A stretch of 64,000 nucleotides of DNA, from NCBI GenBank assembly GCA_001783715.1, contig MFNF01000001.1, positions 248,001 to 312,000 on the forward strand, in the 5' to 3' direction. This DNA is from Candidatus Lambdaproteobacteria bacterium RIFOXYD2_FULL_56_26. Lineage in GTDB: Bacteria > SAR324 > XYD2-FULL-50-16. Below are positions 11,958 to 56,069 of this stretch, piece by piece. The stretch's first letter is position 1, and every line of letters starts with the position of its first letter. Both the position numbers and the translations under genes were made by a program. The notes beneath the pieces were generated by a model. The model had not been told where the DNA came from and did not search any database. It saw only the letters and a program-made list of their open reading frames with translations.

Positions 11958-13661
<1,704 letters not shown>

Positions 13662-15991: not shown

Positions 15992-16061
15992 CCCCAAAAG
16001 ACTAAAATAGCGAATGCAGTCAAGGAACTCAGTGCACTTACAAAATTAAACTTCTACCTTT

Positions 16062-16189
16062 AGGGTTTCGGCTCGTTTTAAAAGTGACGGTTTGGCAAGG
16101 TTGATTTAGGCTTTCACTTTTAAACTGAACCTGAAATGATCGAACTTGGGTGGCCCTTATCTAAAACACGGCGGACCAGCCGAAACCCT
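16062..16189. repeat. Nested inverted-repeat element at the island edge
   Basis: A 12-bp outer inverted repeat (AGGGTTTCGGCT at 16062-16073; AGCCGAAACCCT at 16178-16189) encloses an 11-bp inner one (TTTAAAAGTGA at 16077-16087; TCACTTTTAAA at 16114-16124). All arms are perfect. The inner hairpin has a 26-base loop, and a further 53 bases lie between the inner and outer right arms. It could be a structured RNA or a MITE-like remnant. It lies in the gene-free 15992-16271 spacer exactly where base composition turns AT-rich. Confidence 0.7.
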
Positions 16190-16271
16190 TGGAAACAGGG
16201 ACTTTGATTTGCAATAGTTTTTTCCGTCTGTTCCTTTTGGTGTTTTCTCCAGCAAAATTAAGCTAAAAATC

Positions 16272-17126
16272 ATGAAAATTCGAATCATCCTGAGCCTTTT
16301 GGTGACCCTGATACTCATAGTGTTTTTTGTGAAAAGCGAGGAAGCGTTAGTCTTTTCACTTGAAGAGCCAGAGATTCAGTTTTCAGAAAATGCTTTGTTC
16401 TACTATCCGCTTTTCAAAAACGTTAAAGATGTTTCAGGGCATTTTGGTAGTCTGGTTTACTATGAAAAATCACATTTTTCCAAAGGTGGTTTTGAACTTA
16501 CAGGCACTACAGTGGACTCAATAGTTTTTGCTTATGAGGAAGCACTTAAGCTTAACCCCAAAGATGATTTCACCTTTTCAATGTGGATTCAGCCCAAGAA
16601 GTCTGAGGAGCCCATAGGCCATCGGCTCCAGAATTTGGTGTATTGGGCTGCGGATTCAAAACCTACATTGCCAAGGGTTTCAATTTGGTTCGACGAAGAA
16701 AGCCGAGGTCTTCACATCAACTGTCAGAGTCTTCGATTTAACCTTCCACTTGAACAAGAAACACTGTTTTCTCAACCAATTCAGATTACTTTGATCGTTT
16801 CCAAGCCAAACCGTTTGCTGGAACTTTATATAGACGGTACCTTAAAACGTCGTTTTGTCTTCAACTTCGATGATTATCCTGATGCTGCAATTTTCCAGAT
16901 TGCCCAGGGGCGAGCCCCACTTACGGGTAAAACAGCAGTTTACTCCAATATTGAGATGTGGGACAGAAGGTTGCGTGACACGGAAATTCAACAGGTTTTT
17001 GACGCAAGGAAAGCGTTTTTTGCGAAGCTAAACACCCAACGAACCCTGTTCAGATGGATATTTCTTCTTTCTATTTTTGGAGTTCTGTTATTGGTTTGGA
17101 AAAAGAAAAAAACTAGACCATTTTGA
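16272..17126 (+). CDS. LamG/concanavalin-like domain membrane-anchored protein
   Basis: 284 residues. There is an N-terminal hydrophobic helix (residues about 5-21), a long exported domain and a C-terminal helix (LFRWIFLLSIFGVLLLVW) followed by lysines. This suggests a periplasmic domain held at both ends. The central region has the beta-sandwich pattern of LamG/laminin-type lectin domains: DDFTFSMWIQPKK, LLELYIDGTLKRRFVF and YSNIEMWDRRLRDTEIQQVF are typical. Such domains bind glycans. The gene is AT-rich and is convergent with the next gene, overlapping it by 39 bases. The ligand is unknown. Confidence 0.65.
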   Translation: MKIRIILSLLVTLILIVFFVKSEEALVFSLEEPEIQFSENALFYYPLFKNVKDVSGHFGSLVYYEKSHFSKGGFELTGTTVDSIVFAYEEALKLNPKDDFTFSMWIQPKKSEEPIGHRLQNLVYWAADSKPTLPRVSIWFDEESRGLHINCQSLRFNLPLEQETLFSQPIQITLIVSKPNRLLELYIDGTLKRRFVFNFDDYPDAAIFQIAQGRAPLTGKTAVYSNIEMWDRRLRDTEIQQVFDARKAFFAKLNTQRTLFRWIFLLSIFGVLLLVWKKKKTRPF

Positions 17127-17969
17127 TGGCCCGCTTCGGACCAGACGAAAACCGATTTCAGGATAACCACGGTCTGTAGAGACGATTTGTCTCGTCCCAC
17201 ACCGTGCATCCGGCAGTTTTGACAAAAAGGAACCACCCAAAGCCAAACCTGCATTCGCTCCCAAAGCCCGGCTTGGCATTGGCAGACTCCACTCGGCGAC
17301 ATTTCCAATCATGTCATACAACCCCCAAGGATTGGCAGCAGTCACTTTAGTCAGATAATAAAATGGGTGAAAATCGTTGCAAGCAAAAGTGTCGCTTTCA
17401 CCAAGATGTAATCTGGCTTGCTCGTCAGCTACCATAGCAAATTCGCAAATTTCCTTTCCCAAAGGCACGAAAGTGGGAGTTGATGTTCCGGCTCTACAAG
17501 CGTATTCCCACTCTGCTTCGTTGGGTATTCGGTAGTCATAACCAGTTTTTTTGCTCAACCAAGCTGCAAATGAAATGGCTTCCTCCAAGGTTACATTATT
17601 TGTTGGCGATCCGGTTTCTTGGGTAAGGGTAATATCACGAAATTTTCCAGGATTATGGTCGGGTCGAAAATTTCTAAATTGCATCAAATTTACTTCGCTT
17701 TCAGAAATCCAGTAATCCTCTAAACATATCTTTTGGAAATTTTCCAGACTCGTATGACCTATCTCATTAGCAGGTGAACCCATTTGAAAGCAGTTGCCCT
17801 TCACATAAACAAACTTTAGGCCGACAGCTTTTTCCTCATAATTCTCGATGTAGAAAAACGAAATAAGCGGAATCATCGCTACTAAAATCAAAAAACAAAC
17901 TAACCCTAGGAGGTTCGAGGGGATTGTTTTTGATTGTTTTACAAGCGGTTGTGATATTTTTTCAGGCAT
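17088..17969 (-). CDS. FGE-sulfatase-fold membrane-anchored protein, probably not a true formylglycine enzyme
   Basis: 293 residues. A transmembrane helix (about 20-40) is followed by a periplasmic SUMF1/FGE-sulfatase domain: YVKGNCFQMGSPANE, then SFAAWLSKKTGYDYRIPNEA, EWEYACRAG, NPWGLYDMIGNVAEWS and the terminal EIGFRLVRS. True formylglycine-generating enzymes carry a cysteine pair before the GFR motif. Here the matching segment reads GGSFLSKLPDARCGTR, with only one cysteine, so a non-catalytic or different oxidase role is likelier. It overlaps the 3' end of the YfhO-like gene by 8 bases and is probably co-transcribed with it. No sulfatase gene is nearby. Confidence 0.72.
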   Translation of the reverse strand: MPEKISQPLVKQSKTIPSNLLGLVCFLILVAMIPLISFFYIENYEEKAVGLKFVYVKGNCFQMGSPANEIGHTSLENFQKICLEDYWISESEVNLMQFRNFRPDHNPGKFRDITLTQETGSPTNNVTLEEAISFAAWLSKKTGYDYRIPNEAEWEYACRAGTSTPTFVPLGKEICEFAMVADEQARLHLGESDTFACNDFHPFYYLTKVTAANPWGLYDMIGNVAEWSLPMPSRALGANAGLALGGSFLSKLPDARCGTRQIVSTDRGYPEIGFRLVRSGPSKWSSFFLFPNQ

Positions 17970-20631
17970 CTGCTTGATTTGGTTCGGTGGTGCGCTCCCA
18001 TGAGCGATACCAGATTAAAAAAGTAAAGATTGGCAAGGCGAAGAGGTGTAATGTGGCAGAAATCCAAAATAGTGTATTGTACCAATTGGTAAAAGTGAAC
18101 TCTACCAAATGAGTTCCCTTTTCTAAGGCAACACCTTGCAAGTTGTAGGGCAACTTTTTGATTTCTGAACTGACCCCATCCACCTTAACCGACCAACCCG
18201 TATCAAAGTTTTCGTATCGGACAAGTGTGCCGGATTGATCCAACGTGACTGTTGCCGCTTTGAAGTTCGGATTCGTGCTGGCAATTGGCTGAATCTCCGA
18301 ATTTATCTTTGGAGGAGGAACTGTTAATGGAGTAAACTTCACGATTTTCGGTATGATTTCAACTGGCTGCTCCAATTGCATTTCTCCAATGCTAACGCCT
18401 TTAGCTGCCCGAAAGGACAGCACCAGAGTGCTGGTCAAAACTGGGTTAGGTATTTCCAGTTCGACTTGAGAATTATTGGCATGAACTACTTTGGCCGCTA
18501 GGGGGGTACGGGTTCCATCAGATTTAGCCGAAAAAAGCTTAAGATATTCCCACGTAAAATTGAAAAGCCCTGATGTCGGTGCCAGCAGTTTGACCTTTGA
18601 TATTTTGGATGAAGGAGTCAAATGAGCATTAAGTTCGGCTTCACTTCCAGGATCAATTCCAGACCAAGCCGAATCCAGGTTGCTATCGGCTACAAAGCTG
18701 GGCAAATTGTCAGTCACCGAATCGGAACTGTCATATTGGATTTCTATAGGTATTTGCGGTTGAGTTGTAGCCTCTGGCGCAGGTGCAGGTGCAGGTACAG
18801 GGTTGGGTAGTCCAAAGCGATTATTCAGGTACTCAAGGTTAAGATTGGCGGGACCTACCTCGAACAAGTCACCACCAAGTCCGGCGACCTCTTCATCGGG
18901 TTTGTGTAGTTTTTGATAAAGCTCGGCGAAGTCTTTTTGGATAAAAAATACAAACTGGTCAGACGGATAGGACCAGATCAACTCTTTGTAGATCAAAGGT
19001 GTAAAGTCAAAGGGTTGAGGCACCCTGTACTTGGAATAGTACGACCATTTGTTTGGGTACTCAATTGGCCGTGGTTCTACATTGAGAAGTGCATTTTTGG
19101 GAAAATACCTTTCTGGCTTATATTCGAATTGAGGTGTTTCGAATAGGGGGTGTTTGTTGGGCTGAAATACATTTGGGATTTTATTTATTTCAACCAAATG
19201 CTCCGCAAAGATCGCAAGCACCAATAACGTTACGCCAATTATTTTTACAGATCTCAAATTAATCGAAATGGCAAAGGCTACCACGCTCATTAAAGTCAGC
19301 ACAATGACCAGCCACAAGGTGCGAGTTCCATCGTTGGGGCTGACAATAGACGGATATATAATATAGATAAAACAGAATCCTATGAAAAGTGTAAACAATT
19401 TTTTGTTAGAATTTACGACTGGGTCTAAGAATATTTTTAGCCCCGCCATCGCACCTACCAGCATTAAAAGCCAAGTTGCTCTGCCAAAATGATAGGAGTG
19501 ACGCAACTGATTGAATGGAGGAATATGGTCCACTAAAAAAAACCAAAGCGGTGTTGCTTTTCCAAGACTCAAGAAAAAGCAAAAGACCGTTACCAGGAAC
19601 AGGGTTTTGTGCCCCTTGGTGCCAAGAGGGCACATAAAAAACAATAGAAGTGGCACCATGCCGAGATAGTTGGCGCCCTGGGTGTCTTGCCAGGGTATTA
19701 ACAACACATTGTAATTAGAAAGTAGGGTGGCAGTTGGAGCTTGAGCTCCATAATTTGTAGAACTTACGGTGCCAGAATGAAACCCACGTGTGGGGCTGAC
19801 GAAGTTGTTTTTCTGCAGAAAAAAATGGAACATCGGTGCCGAAGCTCCAATAAACAAAAGTATGCCAAGGAATAAAATTGTCTTTTTAGCCAAAAGAGGA
19901 AAAGCTTTAGCTTTAATCTGCCCCAACGTATGAGGTGCGAGGGATATGTAACTGACGAAAAAAAGGCAGCAAATGATAGGAATAAAAATAGGGATATACA
20001 AATGGGTAGAAAACCCAAGACTTAAACAGAAACCGACAAAAGACAGGGCATGTCCCTCCTTCCAATAACGAAGAAAGAAGAATGCGACCCAGCTCAAAAA
20101 CAAGATAGACCAGATATATGCGGCTTGGTCGATTTCAATCGAAGGAAGATCGGAGAAAAGAAATAAAAGCAGGCCGAGCAAGGCCAAGCTGCGGTCTTTG
20201 CTAAACTGCCACACCAAAAAAAATATGCCTAGCCCGGACCAAGCGTAGGTTACTAGCAAACCGAAAAAAACGGTACCCTCAAAGGTTGGAAACAGGCCTA
20301 GTTTGTTATTGAGAACAAGCGTCAGGACCGGTAGAAAATGTGAAAACTGATTGTTAAAAACTGACATAGGCATTCCGCCACCCATATACGGTAGCCAGCC
20401 TAGCTTGTTCCCGGAAATCAGCCATTCTGATAACATCAACGCAACACGAGCCAAATTGTAGTGGGTATCTCCTGCAGTGATTCGGTCTAAAAAAAACGTT
20501 TCTCGATACATCAAAAAATATGCTACAAACAAAAAAAAGGTGATCGGTGAGACGGTTCGAGTTTTTTTAAATGCCAGGACAGGCATTGTCAAAAGTAGGC
20601 ACACCACCAGTAAAAAAGTATCCAAGAACAT
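17962..20631 (-). CDS. Large YfhO-like multipass membrane protein with a periplasmic discoidin-like insert
   Basis: 889 residues. About twelve N-terminal transmembrane helices (to about residue 480) contain the GWLPYMGGGMPMSVFNNQ loop and HSYHFGRATWLLMLVGAMAG typical of YfhO/GT-C-like proteins. A periplasmic part follows, with a Pro/Ala linker (PVPAPAPAPEA) and a discoidin-type beta domain (PSFVADSNLDSAWSGID and SKISKVKLLAPTS). The C-terminus has the YfhO-style NFDTGWSVKVDG / GTHLVEFTFTN module and a last helix. YfhO proteins glycosylate envelope polymers; the discoidin-like insert is unusual. The gene is AT-rich and island-borne. Its donor and acceptor substrates are unknown. Confidence 0.7.
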   Translation of the reverse strand: MFLDTFLLVVCLLLTMPVLAFKKTRTVSPITFFLFVAYFLMYRETFFLDRITAGDTHYNLARVALMLSEWLISGNKLGWLPYMGGGMPMSVFNNQFSHFLPVLTLVLNNKLGLFPTFEGTVFFGLLVTYAWSGLGIFFLVWQFSKDRSLALLGLLLFLFSDLPSIEIDQAAYIWSILFLSWVAFFFLRYWKEGHALSFVGFCLSLGFSTHLYIPIFIPIICCLFFVSYISLAPHTLGQIKAKAFPLLAKKTILFLGILLFIGASAPMFHFFLQKNNFVSPTRGFHSGTVSSTNYGAQAPTATLLSNYNVLLIPWQDTQGANYLGMVPLLLFFMCPLGTKGHKTLFLVTVFCFFLSLGKATPLWFFLVDHIPPFNQLRHSYHFGRATWLLMLVGAMAGLKIFLDPVVNSNKKLFTLFIGFCFIYIIYPSIVSPNDGTRTLWLVIVLTLMSVVAFAISINLRSVKIIGVTLLVLAIFAEHLVEINKIPNVFQPNKHPLFETPQFEYKPERYFPKNALLNVEPRPIEYPNKWSYYSKYRVPQPFDFTPLIYKELIWSYPSDQFVFFIQKDFAELYQKLHKPDEEVAGLGGDLFEVGPANLNLEYLNNRFGLPNPVPAPAPAPEATTQPQIPIEIQYDSSDSVTDNLPSFVADSNLDSAWSGIDPGSEAELNAHLTPSSKISKVKLLAPTSGLFNFTWEYLKLFSAKSDGTRTPLAAKVVHANNSQVELEIPNPVLTSTLVLSFRAAKGVSIGEMQLEQPVEIIPKIVKFTPLTVPPPKINSEIQPIASTNPNFKAATVTLDQSGTLVRYENFDTGWSVKVDGVSSEIKKLPYNLQGVALEKGTHLVEFTFTNWYNTLFWISATLHLFALPIFTFLIWYRSWERTTEPNQADA

Positions 20632-21081
20632 CTTAAATCAACCGAATAAGTGGTTCGTTACATTCGACAACGAGGCTTTTTGCAACCTGAAAAACATATA
20701 ACCTAGCCCAGCATAGTAAAACGCAAGTTTTCAATAAATCAAGGGCATTGTCTGGAATGAGCGATCGCAACTTTCAAATCAACGCCTGTCACTTTTTGAA
20801 ACAAAATGAAGGTAAGGTAAAGACAAATTTGAAGACTTCACCTACCAGATTGTCCTGGATCGGGTTAAAAGTGGAATTTTTTCCACCGGGTTTATTGATA
20901 GACCATTTCAAGGTTATCCCGCCGTTATCCCGCCAAAAAGGCGGGATCATCAGCCAGCATTTGTGCTAGATTTTCTTTAGCGGCTTTTGCTCACCTTGCC
21001 ACTTCGGCAGTTTGACCGCTTTTCCCTTGGCGTAAACATCTGTCGAGGCCACAGGGTCCCCGCCTGTTTCGGGAACCTGAG
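20632..21081. other. AT-rich debris, no intact gene
   Basis: Nothing intact is seen. A short hairpin ATCCCGCC-AAAAA-GGCGGGAT lies at about 20927-20947, preceded by a tandem GTTATCCCGCC. On the minus strand a frame open from 21081 to a TAG at 20966 reads AGDPVASTDVYAKGKAVKL then PKWQGEQKPLKKI. It looks like a genuine protein tail, but I do not recognise the family and no upstream part remains. Confidence 0.35.
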
Positions 21082-21304
21082 ATGGCTGAAAAGGGCCGCT
21101 CCATCGACAACATCGGCATTGAGCGGTTATTCATGCCGCTGAAGTACGATGAGGTCTTTATCAACGATTGTCGGAGCGTAGCCGAATTGCGGGCTGGAGT
21201 TCAGACGGTATCTGAACTGTTATCACTACAACCGGTTTCATTTGGCGCTGGGTTACAATATGCCGATGGAAGCTTATCGAACAGCTACGGTGAAAGCAAT
21301 TTAA
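21082..21304 (+). pseudogene. IS3-family transposase (orfB) C-terminal fragment, frameshifted
   Basis: The frame from 21082 reads KGRSIDNIGIERLFMPLKYD, carrying the glutamate of the DDE triad in its usual context, then SVAELRAG. One extra base near 21200-21207 relative to the second copy at 25668-25994 shifts the frame. After this shift it continues RRYLNCYHYNRFHLALGYN and ends at the TAA at 21302. The N-terminal two thirds are missing. The second copy in the same orientation is about 65% similar by eye, and the bases after both stop codons share AAAAGAAC-GAG. Confidence 0.85.
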
Positions 21305-21457
21305 AGAAAAGAACTGAGACCGTTGCACAGGTTCGATTCCAGATTTCCTGCTCCAGGACCGATGGTTTTTCTCGGGTAAACCGGTCTTGTTCTGCTTTGC
21401 GCAGTCCTATTTTCCCCGTTTTGGGGGGCTTTGCCCAGTTTTTGGGCGGACTGCTCC

Positions 21458-21592
21458 CTATGAAACCAATCCAACTGCCCGTTTGAGGTTGTAGGCGAAG
21501 CCGTTGAGGTGGAACTCCAACTCTACCTTGGCCTTGCCCAGATAACGGGTTCGGCCAAAGCTGATGTTGAACCCAACTCTAACATAAAAAAC
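21458..21592 (-). pseudogene. IS1182-type transposase C-terminal fragment
   Basis: On the minus strand a frame ends at the TAG at 21460-21458 and reads FNISFGRTRYLGKAKVELEF then HLNGFAYNLKRAVGLVS. The RGxxKVExxFxLxxxAYNLKR pattern is the usual C-terminus of DDE transposases of the IS1182/IS5-like groups. Homology stops at about 21592, immediately next to a TGTCCAGA sequence that looks like an IS end, so another insertion probably cut this gene. Confidence 0.6.
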
Positions 21593-21827
21593 TGTCCAGA
21601 GAATGGGGCCACGTCAACCAAGAAGGCCGTTCAACCAAGACTTGACGGAATAAATGGGCCTACGCTACGCTGCCAACTTGGAAGTTTTCCGCAGCGCAGC
21701 GTTCTTGACTTTTAAGCTTTTAAGGGCTGTGCAACGTTCGGGGAGCAATTCTTTTCCCAGGTTGTCCGTCCTCTCTGGTGCCGAATCGGTCGGTATTTTT
21801 TAAATAAATTTGGTTGAGACTTAGAAT

Positions 21828-23435
21828 ATGCTTTTGATTTACCCCGCAAAAAAGGATGCCCTTAAAATATTCCAATCTTTTTTGCCTATTTATGTTCCAA
21901 TCGGCTTAGGGCATTTGCTCGCTGTCTGCGAAAAACAGAACTTGCCTGTAGAAATGATTGATCAACAGATAGAAGATGATTTTTTGGGGACTATAGACAA
22001 GTATGTTGCCAAAATGCAGCCGCCCTATATTTTTGGGTTCAGCGTTTTTACCATTGCCATGGGGTCGGCAGTTGAAACAGCAAAATACCTGAAGGCCAAA
22101 TACCCGGACTGTGTTACTCTGTTTGGGGGGATTCATCCTACCGCCATGCCGGAGGAAACTCTCCAAACGTTCCCATCCATTGACTTGATCTTTGCCGGTG
22201 AGGCGGAGGAGCACATTTCCACCATCTATCGCCGCCTTAAAAATCGAGAATCTGTCCATGATGTGCCGGGGATAGGTTATCGCAACGGCGAAGGTGAGGT
22301 AGTAATTAACGAGCGCAGTGCGCTCAACATGAACCTAGATCAATATCCAAGCTTTCCCTATCACAGGTTTGAGTCTCCAAAATACGATCTGGGTTTTATT
22401 CTCAGCTCAAGAGGTTGCCCTTACAAATGCACCTTTTGCTCAAATCGGATTACTACCGGCTTAGCCTATCGCTACCGAGCCCCGGAGGCTCTGGTCGCTG
22501 AAATGAAGATGCTGCATGAAAAGTACGGTTGCAAGAAAGTGCTCTTGCTGGATGATAACTTCTTGGTCAACCGCTCCAGAATTCACAAATTGACCAGTTT
22601 GGTGGTCGAAGAGGGGCTGCACAAAAAAATGAGCTTTGGCTTTCAGGCTCGTGCGGATAACGTGCGCCGTGACCAGATGGTAGAACTCTTTGAGGCCGGT
22701 TTTAACAGTGTGTTTTATGGGATTGAAACCGCTTCCAACCGGATCATGAAAGTAATTCGCAAAGACGAGACAATTGAGGATTGCATTGAAGCAGTGAAGA
22801 TATCCAAAGAACTGGGCTTTCATGTGAGTGCAACTTTTATCTTTGCGTTACCCACTGAAACTTCAGCGGACCGGACCGAGGCGATCCGCCTTACCAATGA
22901 ACTTAAAATTGATATGGTCCGCTATAACAATGCTACCCCATATCCAGGTACCGTGTTTTATAAGGAAGCTCAAGCAGAAGGGTTGTTAAATGTTGTAGGG
23001 TATTACGATAACTTTAACTCGGTTTCTACCTTTATTGAGCCACCTTTCAAAAAAATCCCGTTTTCTTATGTCCCGCAGGGCAGCACGGAAAACGAAATTC
23101 GCAGTCAAATTCTTTGGGGTTACTGGCGCTTTTACATGAATTTGGACCGTCTTAAACAAGTATTGAACCGTCCTGACCTCGGGGTGGGGTGGTTTGATGC
23201 AGGCGGGAATATTAAGGAAAAGCTGGTAAAAATCCCCGCACTGACGTTGTTAGCGTTCAACCTTACCTTGAAGTTTTGTGAAATGTGGTTACAATTGGCT
23301 TTTAGGCCCTTTGTTCCTTTGTTTGCTGGGAAAGCCAAAAATGCCAGCCGTACTTACTTTGAACCGGCAATGAATGAGGATTCAATCGGTTCAGCTACAT
23401 TGGAAAACAAGGCACAAAACGATCAAACCCAATAA
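21828..23435 (+). CDS. B12-binding-domain radical SAM protein (BchE-like architecture)
   Basis: 535 residues. Residues 1 to about 150 form a cobalamin-binding-like Rossmann domain (VPIGLGHLLAVCEKQ, VTLFGGIHPTAMPEET, AGEAEEHI). The radical SAM core follows, with cluster cysteines C197, C201 and C204 in SSRGCPYKCTFCSNR, then LLLDDNFLVN, FGFQARADNV and VFYGIETASNRI. Such enzymes catalyse methylation or C-C bond chemistry on unactivated carbons of lipids, antibiotics or pigments. The C-terminal 150 residues are less conserved and contain a hydrophobic stretch. It is the first gene of a three-gene AT-rich operon. The substrate cannot be read from the sequence. Confidence 0.88.
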   Translation: MLLIYPAKKDALKIFQSFLPIYVPIGLGHLLAVCEKQNLPVEMIDQQIEDDFLGTIDKYVAKMQPPYIFGFSVFTIAMGSAVETAKYLKAKYPDCVTLFGGIHPTAMPEETLQTFPSIDLIFAGEAEEHISTIYRRLKNRESVHDVPGIGYRNGEGEVVINERSALNMNLDQYPSFPYHRFESPKYDLGFILSSRGCPYKCTFCSNRITTGLAYRYRAPEALVAEMKMLHEKYGCKKVLLLDDNFLVNRSRIHKLTSLVVEEGLHKKMSFGFQARADNVRRDQMVELFEAGFNSVFYGIETASNRIMKVIRKDETIEDCIEAVKISKELGFHVSATFIFALPTETSADRTEAIRLTNELKIDMVRYNNATPYPGTVFYKEAQAEGLLNVVGYYDNFNSVSTFIEPPFKKIPFSYVPQGSTENEIRSQILWGYWRFYMNLDRLKQVLNRPDLGVGWFDAGGNIKEKLVKIPALTLLAFNLTLKFCEMWLQLAFRPFVPLFAGKAKNASRTYFEPAMNEDSIGSATLENKAQNDQTQ

Positions 23436-23454
23436 TCTGTCACGAAATCGCAAT

Positions 23455-24564
23455 ATGAATAGCCTTCAAACAAACCGGCCCGCTCATTACAAACAAAATC
23501 GTATGAAGACGCTGTGGGCGCGCGGGCAATATTTTTTGTCCTTATTAAAGGTCAGGTTGCTCAAGCAAGATGTACCGGTGATTTGTGTATTGGTGGTCAA
23601 CAACAAGTGTAACTTTGATTGCAAATACTGCTTTGGCGACTACTATAACCGTCGCAGCGAAGTAGATTATTCTACAGAAGAGTTAAAAGATTTGATTGAT
23701 CAACTTTATACCTTAGGCAACAGGTACTTAAACATTCACGGTGGCGAAACTTTATTGCGAAAAGACGTTGGTGAGATTGTCGATTACATTAAATCCAAGG
23801 GGATTTACTGCTGCTTGATCACCAATGGAGCGTTGCTCCGCAAAAAAATTGACGAAGTACGTCAGGTTGACAATATCACCATCTCCCTTGACGGCACCAA
23901 GGAACATAACGACATCAATCGAGGCGCAGGGGCTTATGATGCGGCAATGGATGGAATCAAGGCAGCCCAAGAAGCGGGTATACCGGTCAGGGTTTCAGCT
24001 ACGTTAACGGCACACAGTTACCAAGACATTGGTTATTTGTCGGAACTTGCAAAAGAGATGAATTTTAGCCTTTTCTTTTCAATTCTTTTTAAACCTTTGC
24101 CTCGGGCCAAAGACTGCGAGATGAGCAATGAGCAGATTGCTTGGTCAATGGACGAAATCTTGCGCTATAAAAAACTGGGCTACCCAGTTTTTACCAGCGA
24201 AATGGCATTAAATTTTGCCAAAGCCTGGCCATACTCTCAAAATGACGTACACTTCATGCGGGAAGAAGATGTCAAAAAGTTGGATGGGTTTAAACCAATC
24301 AAGTGTTTCTATGGCAGCATCAAGTTCACCATTGAAGCCGACGGGAGGGTCTATCCTTGCTTTTTGTGGACCGATGACTTTGATGCTCTGAACTGGAAAG
24401 AAGTAGGGGTAAAAAAGGCCATTGAACATGTTCGCAAAACAAACGATTGTGTTTCCTGCCCGGCCCTATCCCAGAATGACCACAACCTGTTGTTAGGTTT
24501 GAATTTTAAACAAGTGGTTTTGATTATCAAGGATCAGTTCTTAGAAGCGTTCCGTCGTACCTAA
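23455..24564 (+). CDS. Radical SAM protein with SPASM-like C-terminus
   Basis: 369 residues from the ATG at 23455, 19 bases after the previous stop; an earlier in-frame start would lie inside the upstream gene. The cluster motif is C52, C56 and C59 (NNKCNFDCKYCFGDY), followed by the SAM-binding NIHGGETLLRKD and ITISLDGTKEHND. C-terminal cysteines occur at IKCFYGSIKF, YPCFLW and DCVSCPAL, the spacing expected for a twitch/SPASM auxiliary cluster. SPASM enzymes often modify peptides or act in lipid or sugar maturation; HpnH-like proteins look similar near the N-terminus. No precursor peptide gene was found beside it. Confidence 0.85.
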   Translation: MNSLQTNRPAHYKQNRMKTLWARGQYFLSLLKVRLLKQDVPVICVLVVNNKCNFDCKYCFGDYYNRRSEVDYSTEELKDLIDQLYTLGNRYLNIHGGETLLRKDVGEIVDYIKSKGIYCCLITNGALLRKKIDEVRQVDNITISLDGTKEHNDINRGAGAYDAAMDGIKAAQEAGIPVRVSATLTAHSYQDIGYLSELAKEMNFSLFFSILFKPLPRAKDCEMSNEQIAWSMDEILRYKKLGYPVFTSEMALNFAKAWPYSQNDVHFMREEDVKKLDGFKPIKCFYGSIKFTIEADGRVYPCFLWTDDFDALNWKEVGVKKAIEHVRKTNDCVSCPALSQNDHNLLLGLNFKQVVLIIKDQFLEAFRRT

Positions 24565-24603
24565 TCCAAGCGTTTACACCTCGCTGTACTTTTCGTTGTT
24601 TTG

Positions 24604-25647
24604 ATGAATAAAATTGGCCCTCTGACCTTCTCAAAGTCTGGCTTGGCGATCTTCCTGGTAAAGGTAGTTTTACTTTTTGGTGCGTTTTATTACCTCATTA
24701 AAACTGGTTTACTGGACCTCAATAAGGTGATGCTGCTTTTCCAACGGCCTGAGGTCACAATTGGCCTTTTGTTGGTCATGCTGATTCCGGTGGCAGGTTT
24801 TAACGTGCTGCGCTGGCAACTTTTGCTCCGAACGCTCGAATTTAGAGTCCCCTTCCGCAGGGTGTACGCTATTTCGTCAATTTCCTTATTTTTTGCAACT
24901 TTTTTGCCCGGCACGGTAGCGAGTGATCCGCTCAAGATGCTTTATTTGGTGCGTCAATCTCCAGGAGCCAGTAAATCAAAACTTGGTGCTTCTTTGATTG
25001 TAGATCGGGTGATGGGCTTAAGTGGCATGTTGTTTCTTCCGATTGTTGCTTGGTTGATTCGACCTGAGCTTTTTAGTTCACCAGCCATGCAGAGCTTGCT
25101 GTTTATGGTGTTGGCTCTGAGCATTGGGGTTGCAGGATTTTTAGGTTGGGTAGTGTTGCACATTCCAGAACACCGTGATCCCTTTATCAAACTGTGCCGT
25201 GCTCTTCCATTGAGCAACTTTACTCTTAAAGTTTATCGGGCATTCAAGTCATATCAAGGGCACTACAAGGTTTTTTTGCTGGCATTTGTGTATTCGCTGC
25301 TTTTACATCTGAGTATGATCTTTATCTATTTGGTGTTGACTCTTGGTCTGGTTACAGATGTTTTTTCAAGTGTCGCATTGTTGATGATTGTCCCTTTGGG
25401 AGAACTAGCGGTAGCTCTGCCGGTGGCTCCAGTGGGGATTGGAGTGGGACATGCTGCCTTTGAGTCGTTGTATTCTATTGCCCAAATACCCTCGGGGGCC
25501 AACGTCTTTAACCTTTATACGGTTTTGAGGATCATTAGCTCTTTGAGTGGTGGTTTTGTTTACTTTTTCTATCGTAGTCGAGGCGAAGGTCGCAAGATGT
25601 TGGAAGATTTGTCCGAAGTTTCAGAAATGGAAAAAATACTCCATTAA
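24604..25647 (+). CDS. UPF0104/lysylphosphatidylglycerol-synthase-TM-like membrane protein
   Basis: 347 residues from the ATG at 24604; a TTG one codon earlier is possible. Eight or so hydrophobic helices carry the family marks FNVLRWQLLLRTL, LFFATFLPGTVASDPLKMLY and GASLIVDRVMGL. The PLGELAVALPVAPVGIGVG region follows. The family includes the flippase half of MprF and AglD-type proteins that move or modify membrane lipids. It ends the radical SAM operon, 39 bases after the second radical SAM gene. This suggests the three act on a membrane-bound product (inference). Confidence 0.82.
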   Translation: MNKIGPLTFSKSGLAIFLVKVVLLFGAFYYLIKTGLLDLNKVMLLFQRPEVTIGLLLVMLIPVAGFNVLRWQLLLRTLEFRVPFRRVYAISSISLFFATFLPGTVASDPLKMLYLVRQSPGASKSKLGASLIVDRVMGLSGMLFLPIVAWLIRPELFSSPAMQSLLFMVLALSIGVAGFLGWVVLHIPEHRDPFIKLCRALPLSNFTLKVYRAFKSYQGHYKVFLLAFVYSLLLHLSMIFIYLVLTLGLVTDVFSSVALLMIVPLGELAVALPVAPVGIGVGHAAFESLYSIAQIPSGANVFNLYTVLRIISSLSGGFVYFFYRSRGEGRKMLEDLSEVSEMEKILH

Positions 25648-25667
25648 ACTGGCAACAGGTGTCTTGA

Positions 25668-25994
25668 AAAGAAGCTCTAGAACGGTATGGAAAGCCAGAA
25701 ATCTTCAATTCCGACCAGGGTTCTCAATACACCAGTGAAGAGCATACACAGCTCCTAAAAGACCACAAGATCACGATCTCTATGAACGGCAAGGGCTGCT
25801 CCATCGACAATATCGCCATTGAGCGGTTCTTTAGGACGCTGAAGTACAACGAGGTCTGCATCAACGACTACCAGAGCGTTGCCGAACTACGGGCTGGGAT
25901 CAGGCGGTACATAGACTTTTACAACCACAACCGGTTTCACTCGGCGCTGGGCTACAAGAAGCCGATGGAAGTCTATCGGAAAGCAACGCTGTAA
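25668..25994 (+). pseudogene. IS3-family transposase (orfB) fragment, 5'-truncated
   Basis: The frame is open from just after a TGA (25665) to the TAA at 25992. It reads ALERYGKPEIFNSDQGSQYT, containing the second catalytic aspartate, then SIDNIAIERFFRTLKYNEV with the catalytic glutamate, and ends RFHSALGYKKPMEVYRKATL. The first catalytic aspartate and the DNA-binding part are missing, so it is inactive. It is the better preserved of two same-orientation copies; the other is at 21082-21304. Confidence 0.88.
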
Positions 25995-26015
25995 GTAGCC
26001 AAAAGAACGGAGCGT

Positions 26016-27191
26016 TTACAACTGAAAAGTTGTCTGGACAAATCGGTCCACTTTACCCAGCGCTGCTTGGGCGGCTTGGACCAGTTGTTGGGCCGCCGGT
26101 TCCGGTTCTTGGGTCAGTTCGAGGGGGCTCAGGGAGAGGCGGATGGTGCCTCGGATCTCTTCGTCGGTGAGGCCCAAGGCCTTGAGTGCCAAGGAGAGCT
26201 TTTTGGACCGGGCTTGGCAGGCGCTGCCCTGGCTGGCCAAGATTCCACGGGCGGCCAGATGGTGCAGCCAAACCTCTCCCAACAGCCCGGGCACCTGCAA
26301 AGAAAGAATGTGGGGAACCTGGAACCCGGTTTCCAGCCGCCGCAAGGAGGGCATCAGGCCCTTGGCGGTCAGCCAGAATCGGTCGCCCCAGGCCTGGACT
26401 GCCTGCCAATGGTCTTGACGGTGGGCCTCGGCCCAGTCGGCGGCCCAAGAGAGCCCCAGGCAGGCGGGGACGTTTTCGGTGCCCGAACGGAGCCCTCCTT
26501 CTTGTCCGCCCCCGTGGAGCAACGGTTCCAAAAGAAGGGGTCGAGTCAGGACCAACGCCGCACCGCCCCAAACCCCGTGGACCTTGTGCCCACTTACGCT
26601 GTAAAGATCAACCCCCCACAAGCCCAGCTCCGGCTTCAACTTGCCCAGGCCCTGGACCCCGTCGCTGTGAAACAGGGTCTTGGGGTTTTGGGCCTTGATC
26701 AGTTGGCCCAACGCCTTAAGGTCCTGGGTGGTCCCGGTTTCTCCATTGACCTGCCCGATCGAAACCAACCGGGTTTCTGCGGTCAGCTTGGCCTTGAGGT
26801 CCTCTGGGTCCACCTGTCCGGTCTTGGGGTGGATCCGGACCCAGTCCACCGGCCCGCCACGGTCTTGGTACCATGCGGCACATTCGGTGACCGCCTTGTG
26901 CTCCAAGGGACTGGTCAAAAAACGGCCCAGGTTTTTGGCCCCTCGGACCAGGGTCCCCTTGATGGCTAGATTGTCGGCCTCCGTGCCGGACCCACAAAAA
27001 ACGATCCCCTCCAAAGGCACCGAAAAAAGCCGGGCCAGGTCCCGGCGGGCCCAGTCCAATTCCTTTTTTTGGGTCATCCCCCAAGGGTGGACGGAGCTGG
27101 GGTTGGCGTGGGGCAATTGGGCATATCCGGCCAAGCGGGCCAGCAGGTCCGGGTGGGGCCTCGTGCTGGCGGCTGCGTCCAGGTAAAGCAT
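26016..27191 (-). CDS. Cysteine desulfurase (NifS/IscS family)
   Basis: 391 residues. A fold-type I PLP enzyme with YLDAAASTRPHPDLL at the N-terminus and CGSGTEADNLAIKG. The PLP lysine is in YSVSGHKVHGVWG, followed by GGGQEGGLRSGTEN; the active cysteine is in ASQGSACQARSKK. It takes sulfur from cysteine for Fe-S clusters, thiouridine or molybdopterin. It starts 2 bases after purQ ends. The last codons (VQTTFQL and stop) lie inside an IS-end-like sequence, so the natural C-terminus has probably been replaced by a few foreign residues. The catalytic core is complete, so activity is likely retained. Confidence 0.9.
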   Translation of the reverse strand: MLYLDAAASTRPHPDLLARLAGYAQLPHANPSSVHPWGMTQKKELDWARRDLARLFSVPLEGIVFCGSGTEADNLAIKGTLVRGAKNLGRFLTSPLEHKAVTECAAWYQDRGGPVDWVRIHPKTGQVDPEDLKAKLTAETRLVSIGQVNGETGTTQDLKALGQLIKAQNPKTLFHSDGVQGLGKLKPELGLWGVDLYSVSGHKVHGVWGGAALVLTRPLLLEPLLHGGGQEGGLRSGTENVPACLGLSWAADWAEAHRQDHWQAVQAWGDRFWLTAKGLMPSLRRLETGFQVPHILSLQVPGLLGEVWLHHLAARGILASQGSACQARSKKLSLALKALGLTDEEIRGTIRLSLSPLELTQEPEPAAQQLVQAAQAALGKVDRFVQTTFQL

Positions 27192-54418: not shown

Positions 54419-55027
54419 CTATGTCTTCAAAGCGTTATACATTGCTTTTGCAACAGAATCGATAAAAGCAACTGTTTCGTCAATCTGCCCTGAATCTATT
54501 GGCCACCGAAAGCCTGGATTTACAGGGTCGAGATCCGCTTCATGTGCAATTTTATTACGACGATCAACGATAAGTTCCAGCCTCTTTACAATATCAACTT
54601 CGGGAAAATTTAGTTCCTTTGCCACTTTTTCCCAAATATCTCCTTTGGAAATTAAAGAAAAGCCCTCAGCTATCTTTTTAGGGCGCTGGAAAGTTTTGTA
54701 CGAGTGTAACTCTCTGATGCGAGCATCAAGTTGATTGAGTTCACTTATACCAATTTCAGTTTGTGTATCGATGACTTGAAATTCTGAAAATCGGCGATTT
54801 AAAAGGTCACATTTTACCCTGATACCTGAAAAGCTTTCTATGATCCCAACACGAATAAACTCATGCACGACTTGGTCTAAGGCACTAACAGTAAAAACTA
54901 CTTGCGCCCGAAGTAAATCAGAAAGATCAAGGCTACCATGAGTAAGAATTCCAACAGCGTTTGCTATCCCCCCAAGATCACAAACTTTTTTTAGATTCTC
55001 ATTAAATTGTAAGAGAGCTTTCTCCAT
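54419..55027 (-). CDS. HEPN-domain protein (RiboL-PSP-HEPN-like), putative RNase effector
   Basis: 202 residues, all-helical and AT-rich. The C-terminal half holds a HEPN signature DRRNKIAHEADLDP, with R157 and H162 forming the Rx4H ribonuclease motif, followed by a helix (DETVAFIDSVAKAMYNAL). The N-terminal helix LLRAQVVFTVSALDQVVHEF suits the first HEPN helix of the RiboL-PSP group. HEPN proteins commonly cleave tRNA or mRNA in toxin-antitoxin and antiviral systems. The start overlaps the upstream ParA-like gene by 26 bases, so the two form a coupled pair. The gene stops 13 bases from hisI on the other strand. Confidence 0.72.
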   Translation of the reverse strand: MEKALLQFNENLKKVCDLGGIANAVGILTHGSLDLSDLLRAQVVFTVSALDQVVHEFIRVGIIESFSGIRVKCDLLNRRFSEFQVIDTQTEIGISELNQLDARIRELHSYKTFQRPKKIAEGFSLISKGDIWEKVAKELNFPEVDIVKRLELIVDRRNKIAHEADLDPVNPGFRWPIDSGQIDETVAFIDSVAKAMYNALKT

Positions 55028-56069
55028 CTTTCACAATCCCTATGATGCGGGTAGCCAGCTCAGAAAATATCGAGTGGAATTCCTCTTTTTTGTTAATATC
55101 CTGTTCTAACACTACTCCAGTGTGTCCTATCATGTCGTCAGTTAAAGCAAATACAGGTGTTTGATGGGTCTGTGAAGCTGTAATAAGAGTGTTGAAATCT
55201 GGAATTTGGGCGAGGCAATAAGCAGTGTCTTTTATGGTGTTGTTTTCATAGGTTGCTGCATCAAGCAATAATTGCGTTTGTGAAAGAGACGGAACCAAGC
55301 GTCCCTTTACCTTTGTATTAATCTCGCTAAACCAATTCTGAAAGCCAACAGTAGGTTTCTTTTTTCTCTGTCGATATCTTTGAATAACAGTTCCGATAAA
55401 CTTGAGCTTCGTATCAGGAAAGGGATATGTCGCAGTCTTTAGCGTTTCCGAATTTGCGGCTTTGTGCGCCCAAGCTACCCACTTCGGCAAAGTTGTGGCG
55501 AGTGATTCAATTGCCATAACACTAAAATAATCCGGGGCTGTTGGAATTAAAAAATAGTCACTCGTCACTAGTATATTTTGATTCATGGAACTGAGGCTTG
55601 GACTCATATCAATTAAAACAAAATCAGCATCGTATTTTTTAGCCACTTTATTTATGAAATAATGAAAAGCTCCTGGAACATTTCGTAGAGCCTGAATTGA
55701 GCTAGAGAGTTCTTGCGCAACTCCTAACGTAACTTCATATTCGCTGAAATTGATATGCCCAGGCACAAGAAATAATCCATTCCGAGTTGGAACCTCAACA
55801 CAATCTATGGCATCAATTAGCATAGGTTGTGACTCATATGCGGGAGCTAAAGCTGCCTTTATGTTTTGTTGCGGGAAGGTAGTGTAAAAATTATCTAGAT
55901 CAATGGACTGGCTGTAGTCCATAACAAGACCTGTTAAATTACATTGAGGGTCTGTATCAACCATGACCACTCGAAATCCTTTTTCGGCCAGCATCCAACT
56001 TAGGTTAAAGGTGGTTGTTGTCTTGCTTACTCCGCCTTTATGATTAAAAAGTGCTATTGTTTTATGCAT
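55002..56069 (-). CDS. ParA/Soj-like ATPase of the HEPN-associated module
   Basis: 355 residues, AT-rich. The deviant Walker A motif is in NHKGGVSKTTTT (K11 to T17), with the A-prime aspartate in VVMVDTDPQCNLT and Walker B in ADFVLIDMSPSLS. The protein is about 100 residues longer than chromosomal ParA and has a basic RYRQRKKK segment in the second half. No ParB gene or parS-like repeat is nearby, and it is translationally coupled to a HEPN protein, so a chromosome-partition role is unlikely. A sensing or regulatory role in a defence or toxin-antitoxin-like system is inferred. A TATAAT hexamer lies upstream at 56132-56127. Confidence 0.85.
   Translation of the reverse strand: MHKTIALFNHKGGVSKTTTTFNLSWMLAEKGFRVVMVDTDPQCNLTGLVMDYSQSIDLDNFYTTFPQQNIKAALAPAYESQPMLIDAIDCVEVPTRNGLFLVPGHINFSEYEVTLGVAQELSSSIQALRNVPGAFHYFINKVAKKYDADFVLIDMSPSLSSMNQNILVTSDYFLIPTAPDYFSVMAIESLATTLPKWVAWAHKAANSETLKTATYPFPDTKLKFIGTVIQRYRQRKKKPTVGFQNWFSEINTKVKGRLVPSLSQTQLLLDAATYENNTIKDTAYCLAQIPDFNTLITASQTHQTPVFALTDDMIGHTGVVLEQDINKKEEFHSIFSELATRIIGIVKDGESSLTI

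Follow-up and report, generated by a model that had tools for sequence, protein, structure and literature searches.

Passenger genes are flanked by IS copies in compound and pseudo-compound transposons (PMC7986276). In mobile insertion cassettes and solo IRs, IS ends lie around unrelated genes without a transposase (PMC3129680). The locus described here is a radical SAM operon in a 64,000-nucleotide stretch of DNA (the window, meaning the whole stretch that was analysed), and a preliminary description presented it as an IS-derived unit with inverted ends. It is most probably (with a probability of roughly 0.7) a dead, IS3-scarred, horizontally acquired island that carries the operon, rather than an inverted-ended cassette. 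In kind, it is an ordinary genomic island with IS remnants.

The operon and its flanking IS3 remnants

The operon contains three genes on the forward strand. The first (21828-23435) encodes a 535-aa B12-binding radical SAM protein with the Pfam domains Radical_SAM (E-value: 8e-25) and B12-binding (E-value: 3e-13) and the motif CPYKCTFC. The second (23374-24564) encodes another radical SAM protein (Radical_SAM E-value: 1.4e-25) with CNFDCKYC in its translation; a start at a later ATG gives a protein of about 375 aa. The third (24601-25647) encodes a flippase-like membrane protein with the domain LPG_synthase_TM (PF03706; E-value: 2.8e-26). As was first reported, these are AT-rich genes (43-47% GC, compared with about 56% in the surrounding DNA) with functions other than transposition. 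A peptide-pattern scan of named genomes detects no close homologues of the first gene, which has its best match among relatives at 33% identity and matches plasmids only at less than 60% identity. The three genes are not found as a conserved set in the relatives, where only some of the gene families co-occur. The operon and the island around it probably function in surface-glycan or membrane-lipid biosynthesis.

A 5'-truncated IS3 remnant (25650-26055, forward strand) borders the operon on the right and matches the copies on contigs C52 and C44 up to the tip. Its transposase, correctly described as truncated and just inside the right end, starts directly after the stop codon of the third gene. 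The surviving C-terminus (25671-25994) covers positions 305-368 of the 369 in the NCBIfam model transpos_IS3 (E-value: 8.9e-20) and is also matched by Pfam rve_3. Profile and pattern matches, read against the anatomy of an intact IS, place the 25-bp right end (IRR) at 26031-26055 on the forward strand, with the tip at 26055 or a few bases inside.

The left copy is more damaged. A transposase 3' fragment (21091-21296, forward strand) is 80% identical to 25791-25995 in the same orientation, and its reading frames are broken by frameshifts. At 21316, the end fragment of a different repeated element interrupts the copy (21316-21559, from repeat matches), beyond which an IRR remnant resumes (21585-21616, forward strand). 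Matches to the inserted element on contigs C40, C18, C15, C31 and C35 all start at the same base. Contigs C31 and C35 both end within it (77-85 bp, 99% identical), which suggests a recently active, multi-copy element that was collapsed in the assembly. The left and right IS3 copies are not sisters: they share 72% identity, and the right one shares 79% with the copy on C52. Only right ends are found in the window, and no IRL. All 12 IS3 transposase hits in this genome are fragments and none exceeds the family cut-off, in an assembly (97% complete, 68 contigs) from which an intact copy may have been lost.

An intact relative of these copies occurs in the same-family genome G005 (contig C19, region L208, about 73925-75235). 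Its transposase matches positions 1-368 of the family model and exceeds the cut-off. The element begins with the IRL TATAATGGACCCAAAAATTTAGACAGG at about 73925 and ends with an IRR that reads, tip first, TATAGTGGACCCAACTGTCCAGACAGG. By comparison with this element, TGTCTGGACA is the inner part of a right end of about 25 bp that continues as AATGGGGTCCACTTCA, and the true terminus lies about 15 bp outside the motif taken for the IS end. The IRL of the G005 element differs from the left motif of the window. The ends of the full IS are therefore different from, and longer than, those proposed in the preliminary description, an outcome that it had itself named as contrary to its reading. In genome G003, two contigs break just inside such right ends and have unique sequence on the tip side, in agreement with the right-end orientation. 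The G005 element can serve as a reference for the window remnants, with which it shares the right-end sequence type and a transposase C-terminus at 75% identity (80/107 residues). Unlike it, both copies in the window are missing the 5' half and the left end, and the left one is frameshifted as well.

The two motifs from which the inverted-ended unit was deduced do exist, TGTCCAGAGAA at 21593-21603 and TTGTCTGGACA at 26030-26040, and their inverted match at 10 of 11 positions is real; the motifs are not, however, inverted IS termini. When the two 200-bp end zones are shuffled, 11-mer pairs with 10 or more inverted matches also turn up in 19.5% of the zone pairs. The right-end core TTGTCTGGACA matches its own reverse complement at eight of 10 positions. 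Read directly, the left site can be aligned with four IS3 right ends from different copies over 25-41 bp (shuffle p of 0.002 or less), and 21585-21616 tracks the right remnant and the C52 and C44 copies through the motif and past it. In inverted orientation, only 11-14 bp align to three copies of the same IS type (p 0.005-0.10); the alignment to the more distant end on contig C16 is longer, but gapped (p 0.019). The left motif is another right end in direct orientation, which seems inverted because the core is nearly palindromic, and the inverted match is a product of this core in direct copies. The left site spans only about 30 bp, and its assignment is supported by the match to other ends and by the adjacent transposase piece. 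As the site aligns better directly and the two transposase pieces are also direct, the operon is bracketed by two direct, 5'-truncated IS3 right-end remnants. A near-palindromic IS core can easily make directly repeated remnants resemble an inverted-ended cassette.

The AT-rich island and its junction with nifS

The AT-rich block starts near 16.0 kb, not at 21.6 kb, and the putatively acquired island (16000-26055; 41-48% GC, compared with about 56% around it) is larger than the 21593-26040 unit first proposed. Its left border is approximate and is defined by the GC change only. Three further genes are present in its left part. A LamG-like protein of 284 aa (16272-17126, forward strand) has no Pfam match itself, but its tblastn homologues in gene clusters of G003 carry Laminin_G_3. 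It is followed on the reverse strand by an FGE-sulfatase domain protein (17088-17969; PF03781, E-value: 8.5e-25) and a YfhO-like membrane protein (17962-20631; Pfam YfhO E-value: 2e-5, 23.7 bits, below the curated cut-off), which resembles a YfhO-like gene in G003. The left IS3 copy separates the YfhO-like gene from the operon. There is no tRNA in the window that could anchor the island. A second AT-rich patch of the window (54422-56069) encodes a HEPN_RiboL-PSP protein and an overlapping ParA-like ATPase and is possibly a small defence or toxin-antitoxin module.

Homologues of island genes (LamG, YfhO, B12 radical SAM and LPG_synthase_TM) occur together on contigs C49, C14 and C54 of G003, in clusters of a surface-glycan or lipid type. 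Although this co-occurrence resembles the window, the G003 clusters differ in having mostly 23-31% identity, another gene order and many extra glycosyltransferase, epimerase and methyltransferase genes, as seen on the annotated contigs.

The right border of the island, where IS3 sequence was already placed by the preliminary description, is an IS tip that abuts host DNA. The gene on its far side encodes a host nifS-like cysteine desulfurase (26016-27191, reverse strand; Aminotran_5 E-value: 1.4e-44). The tip falls at the nifS stop codon. A C-terminal alignment shows that the NifS proteins of relatives end at this point and that the window NifS is extended by about 10 residues read from the IS end. 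Across the tip, the GC content rises from 0.46 to 0.65. On the left, groEL (12012-13661, forward strand; Pfam Cpn60_TCP1 E-value: 1e-75) is a conserved landmark that lies near nifS in several relatives.

The comparison set comprises eight same-family genomes, none of them of the same genus. In all eight, nifS neighbours amidotransferase (purQ/purL-like) and glnD-like genes, and in none of the eight are island genes found beside nifS. The groEL-nifS interval of G005 is 2.1 kb long and contains two unrelated genes, and several other relatives hold different gene sets there. Relatives carrying the operon at this locus without IS sequences had been named as evidence against the proposed unit; the relatives examined have no operon there. 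With its alien base composition and its absence at the locus from the eight genomes, the region has the features by which genomic islands are recognized.

IS3 right ends at other cargo borders

A profile search for the IS3 right end identifies about 20 ends in this genome, nine in G003 and few or none in the other relatives; the survey combined this search with selected regions, and some ends may have been missed. Ten of the 20 ends lie at GC steps of 0.10 or more, compared with 6% of random positions, and the mean GC step at the ends is 0.099 compared with 0.036 (permutation p 2e-4), where the null was drawn from the same contigs and the tested regions were chosen for holding ends. Eight pairs of neighbouring ends lie within 7 kb of each other, whereas 0.94 are expected. 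An accumulation of IS copies in dispensable DNA would by itself lead to clustering; it is less easy to dismiss that the ends coincide with GC steps. Ends of this family occur at the borders of other alien cargo in the genome with a frequency above chance.

Convergent pairs of ends enclose a type II restriction-modification system (contig C62), a DUF4238 gene (C45), an unassigned gene (C16) and an AcrB-family efflux operon (C11). The methyltransferase and restriction enzyme on C62 are identified by PADLOC (E-values: 5.5e-185 and 3.2e-120, respectively). This complete pair occupies an AT-rich segment of 2.45 kb (region L153, 1501-3998) flanked by convergent IS3 ends, the arms of which are 94 nt long and 84% complementary. 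On C55, a second AT-rich radical SAM/LPG_synthase_TM cluster lies between direct right ends, as in the window. This cluster (region L111, 9230-15554) encodes a glycosyltransferase, an asparagine synthase, a radical SAM protein, an epimerase and an LPG_synthase_TM protein, and its left end shares the variant AAATCGG with the right end of the window. The geometry of the ends is mixed, with tips toward the cargo in the convergent pairs and toward the host in the window, at the right end of C55 and on C66. In several of the end modules, the truncation lies at much the same position upstream. For the C16 cassette, a comparison with relatives for an empty site finds only the left flank syntenic.

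Other repeats accompany some of these ends. The AcrB-family efflux operon (region L155 on C11, 769-7069) and a type I restriction system (region L154 on C9, 899-8127) have the same flanking repeats on both sides. A repeat of about 900 bp (L150 on C52, 13586-14485; L155, 7043-7932; L152 on C5, 14121-14913; L153, 3974-4736; L154, 899-1219) adjoins IS3 ends in several of its copies and lies directly behind a tRNA-Leu or tRNA-Arg gene on C5, C9 and C11. Some IS3 ends elsewhere in the genome are also near tRNA genes.

A literature search for a recurrent pattern of IS3 ends at cargo borders yields no match beyond general IS reviews. The presence of IS3 ends at other cargo borders hints that the ends may be more than scars, and this recurrent pattern is the part of the analysis worth following. 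In this poorly sampled lineage, acquired clusters can be found simply by looking for IS3 right-end remnants at the borders of alien cargo. Should the ends turn out to be active borders, biosynthetic and defence genes would be moved here by an unusual route.

Origin of the locus and comparison with known systems

Three other explanations may be weighed against an island with IS remnants. If 21593 and 26040 were the true inverted ends of an IS-derived element in which the operon has replaced the transposition genes, the 10/11 inverted match and the AT-rich cargo would be accounted for. Such an element is most improbable: 19.5% of shuffled zones contain a match this good, the motif belongs to the inner part of an IS end, the left site fits the direct orientation better and there is no target duplication (AAC precedes 21593 and AAT follows 26040). 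This reading was rejected on the direct alignment, the intact IS termini and the shuffle statistics. The suggestion that an IS-derived unit with inverted ends moved the biosynthetic operon is likewise not supported, given the different true termini, the direct left end and an IS3 transposase repertoire with no member over the cut-off. A classical compound transposon, in which two direct full IS3 copies moved the operon as one unit and then decayed, is unlikely. It is consistent with two same-orientation copies of one IS type at either side of the operon and with the same direct arrangement on C55. However, since the copies are not sisters by their identities (72% to each other, 79% between the right copy and C52), they speak against one recent composite transposition. 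Of its outer ends, the right one is present at nifS; left ends and a target duplication were not found, and alien DNA extends to the left of the left copy.

It is quite unlikely that the operon is one product of a transposase-less cassette system. In such a system, cargo (type I and II restriction systems, metal efflux operons and radical SAM/glycan clusters) would be captured between short IS3 right-end modules by recombination or one-ended transposition. The pairing of the ends (eight pairs within 7 kb against 0.94 expected), the position of 10 of 20 at GC steps of 0.10 or more, the convergent pairs around cargo on C62, C45, C16 and C11, the direct ends around the second radical SAM cluster on C55 and the similar truncation point of several modules all argue for it. 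No single geometry fits, however, because in the convergent pairs the tips point to the cargo, whereas in the window, at the right of C55 and on C66 they point to the host. Dispensable islands in which IS copies gather would also produce clustering, and target duplications and empty sites were not found.

The proposed history of the locus as an acquired island with IS remnants is as follows. The operon would be the right half of an AT-rich island of about 16.0-26.05 kb, with genes similar to those of surface-glycan or membrane-lipid clusters in the same bacterial family. Ordinary IS3-family copies may have arrived together with the foreign DNA, or they may have inserted into it and at its border. 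The right tip of the right copy is at the nifS stop codon, and the left copy, between the YfhO-like gene and the operon, was itself hit by another repeat element. Both copies lost their 5' halves, which leaves only 3' ends in direct repeat. The operon probably entered with the IS copies or recombined through them, in a composite-like event or one based on IS homology. A horizontal origin is likely, as is participation of the IS copies in the acquisition rather than their later arrival. The structure is now dead and unable to move on its own.

The locus has only part of what defines the known systems, among which partial IS copies left behind as scars also count as close counterparts. From the IS3 family, it retains an integrase-core transposase (C-terminus only) and does not have both terminal repeats. 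Like mobile insertion cassettes and solo IRs (PMC3129680), it has transposase-less IS ends around unrelated genes; in contrast to mobile insertion cassettes, its ends are direct rather than inverted, the genome has no cognate full IS3 transposase, and outward inverted terminal repeats and a target-site duplication are both lacking. The flanking copies of compound transposons are nearly identical, whereas those of the window are 72% identical. Compared with compound and pseudo-compound transposons (PMC7986276), the window copies are unlike fragments, for which no active transposase, outer left end or duplication was found, and they belong to IS3 rather than to the IS6 family. What the window has in common with these transposons is its cargo between two direct IS copies, both of them partial.
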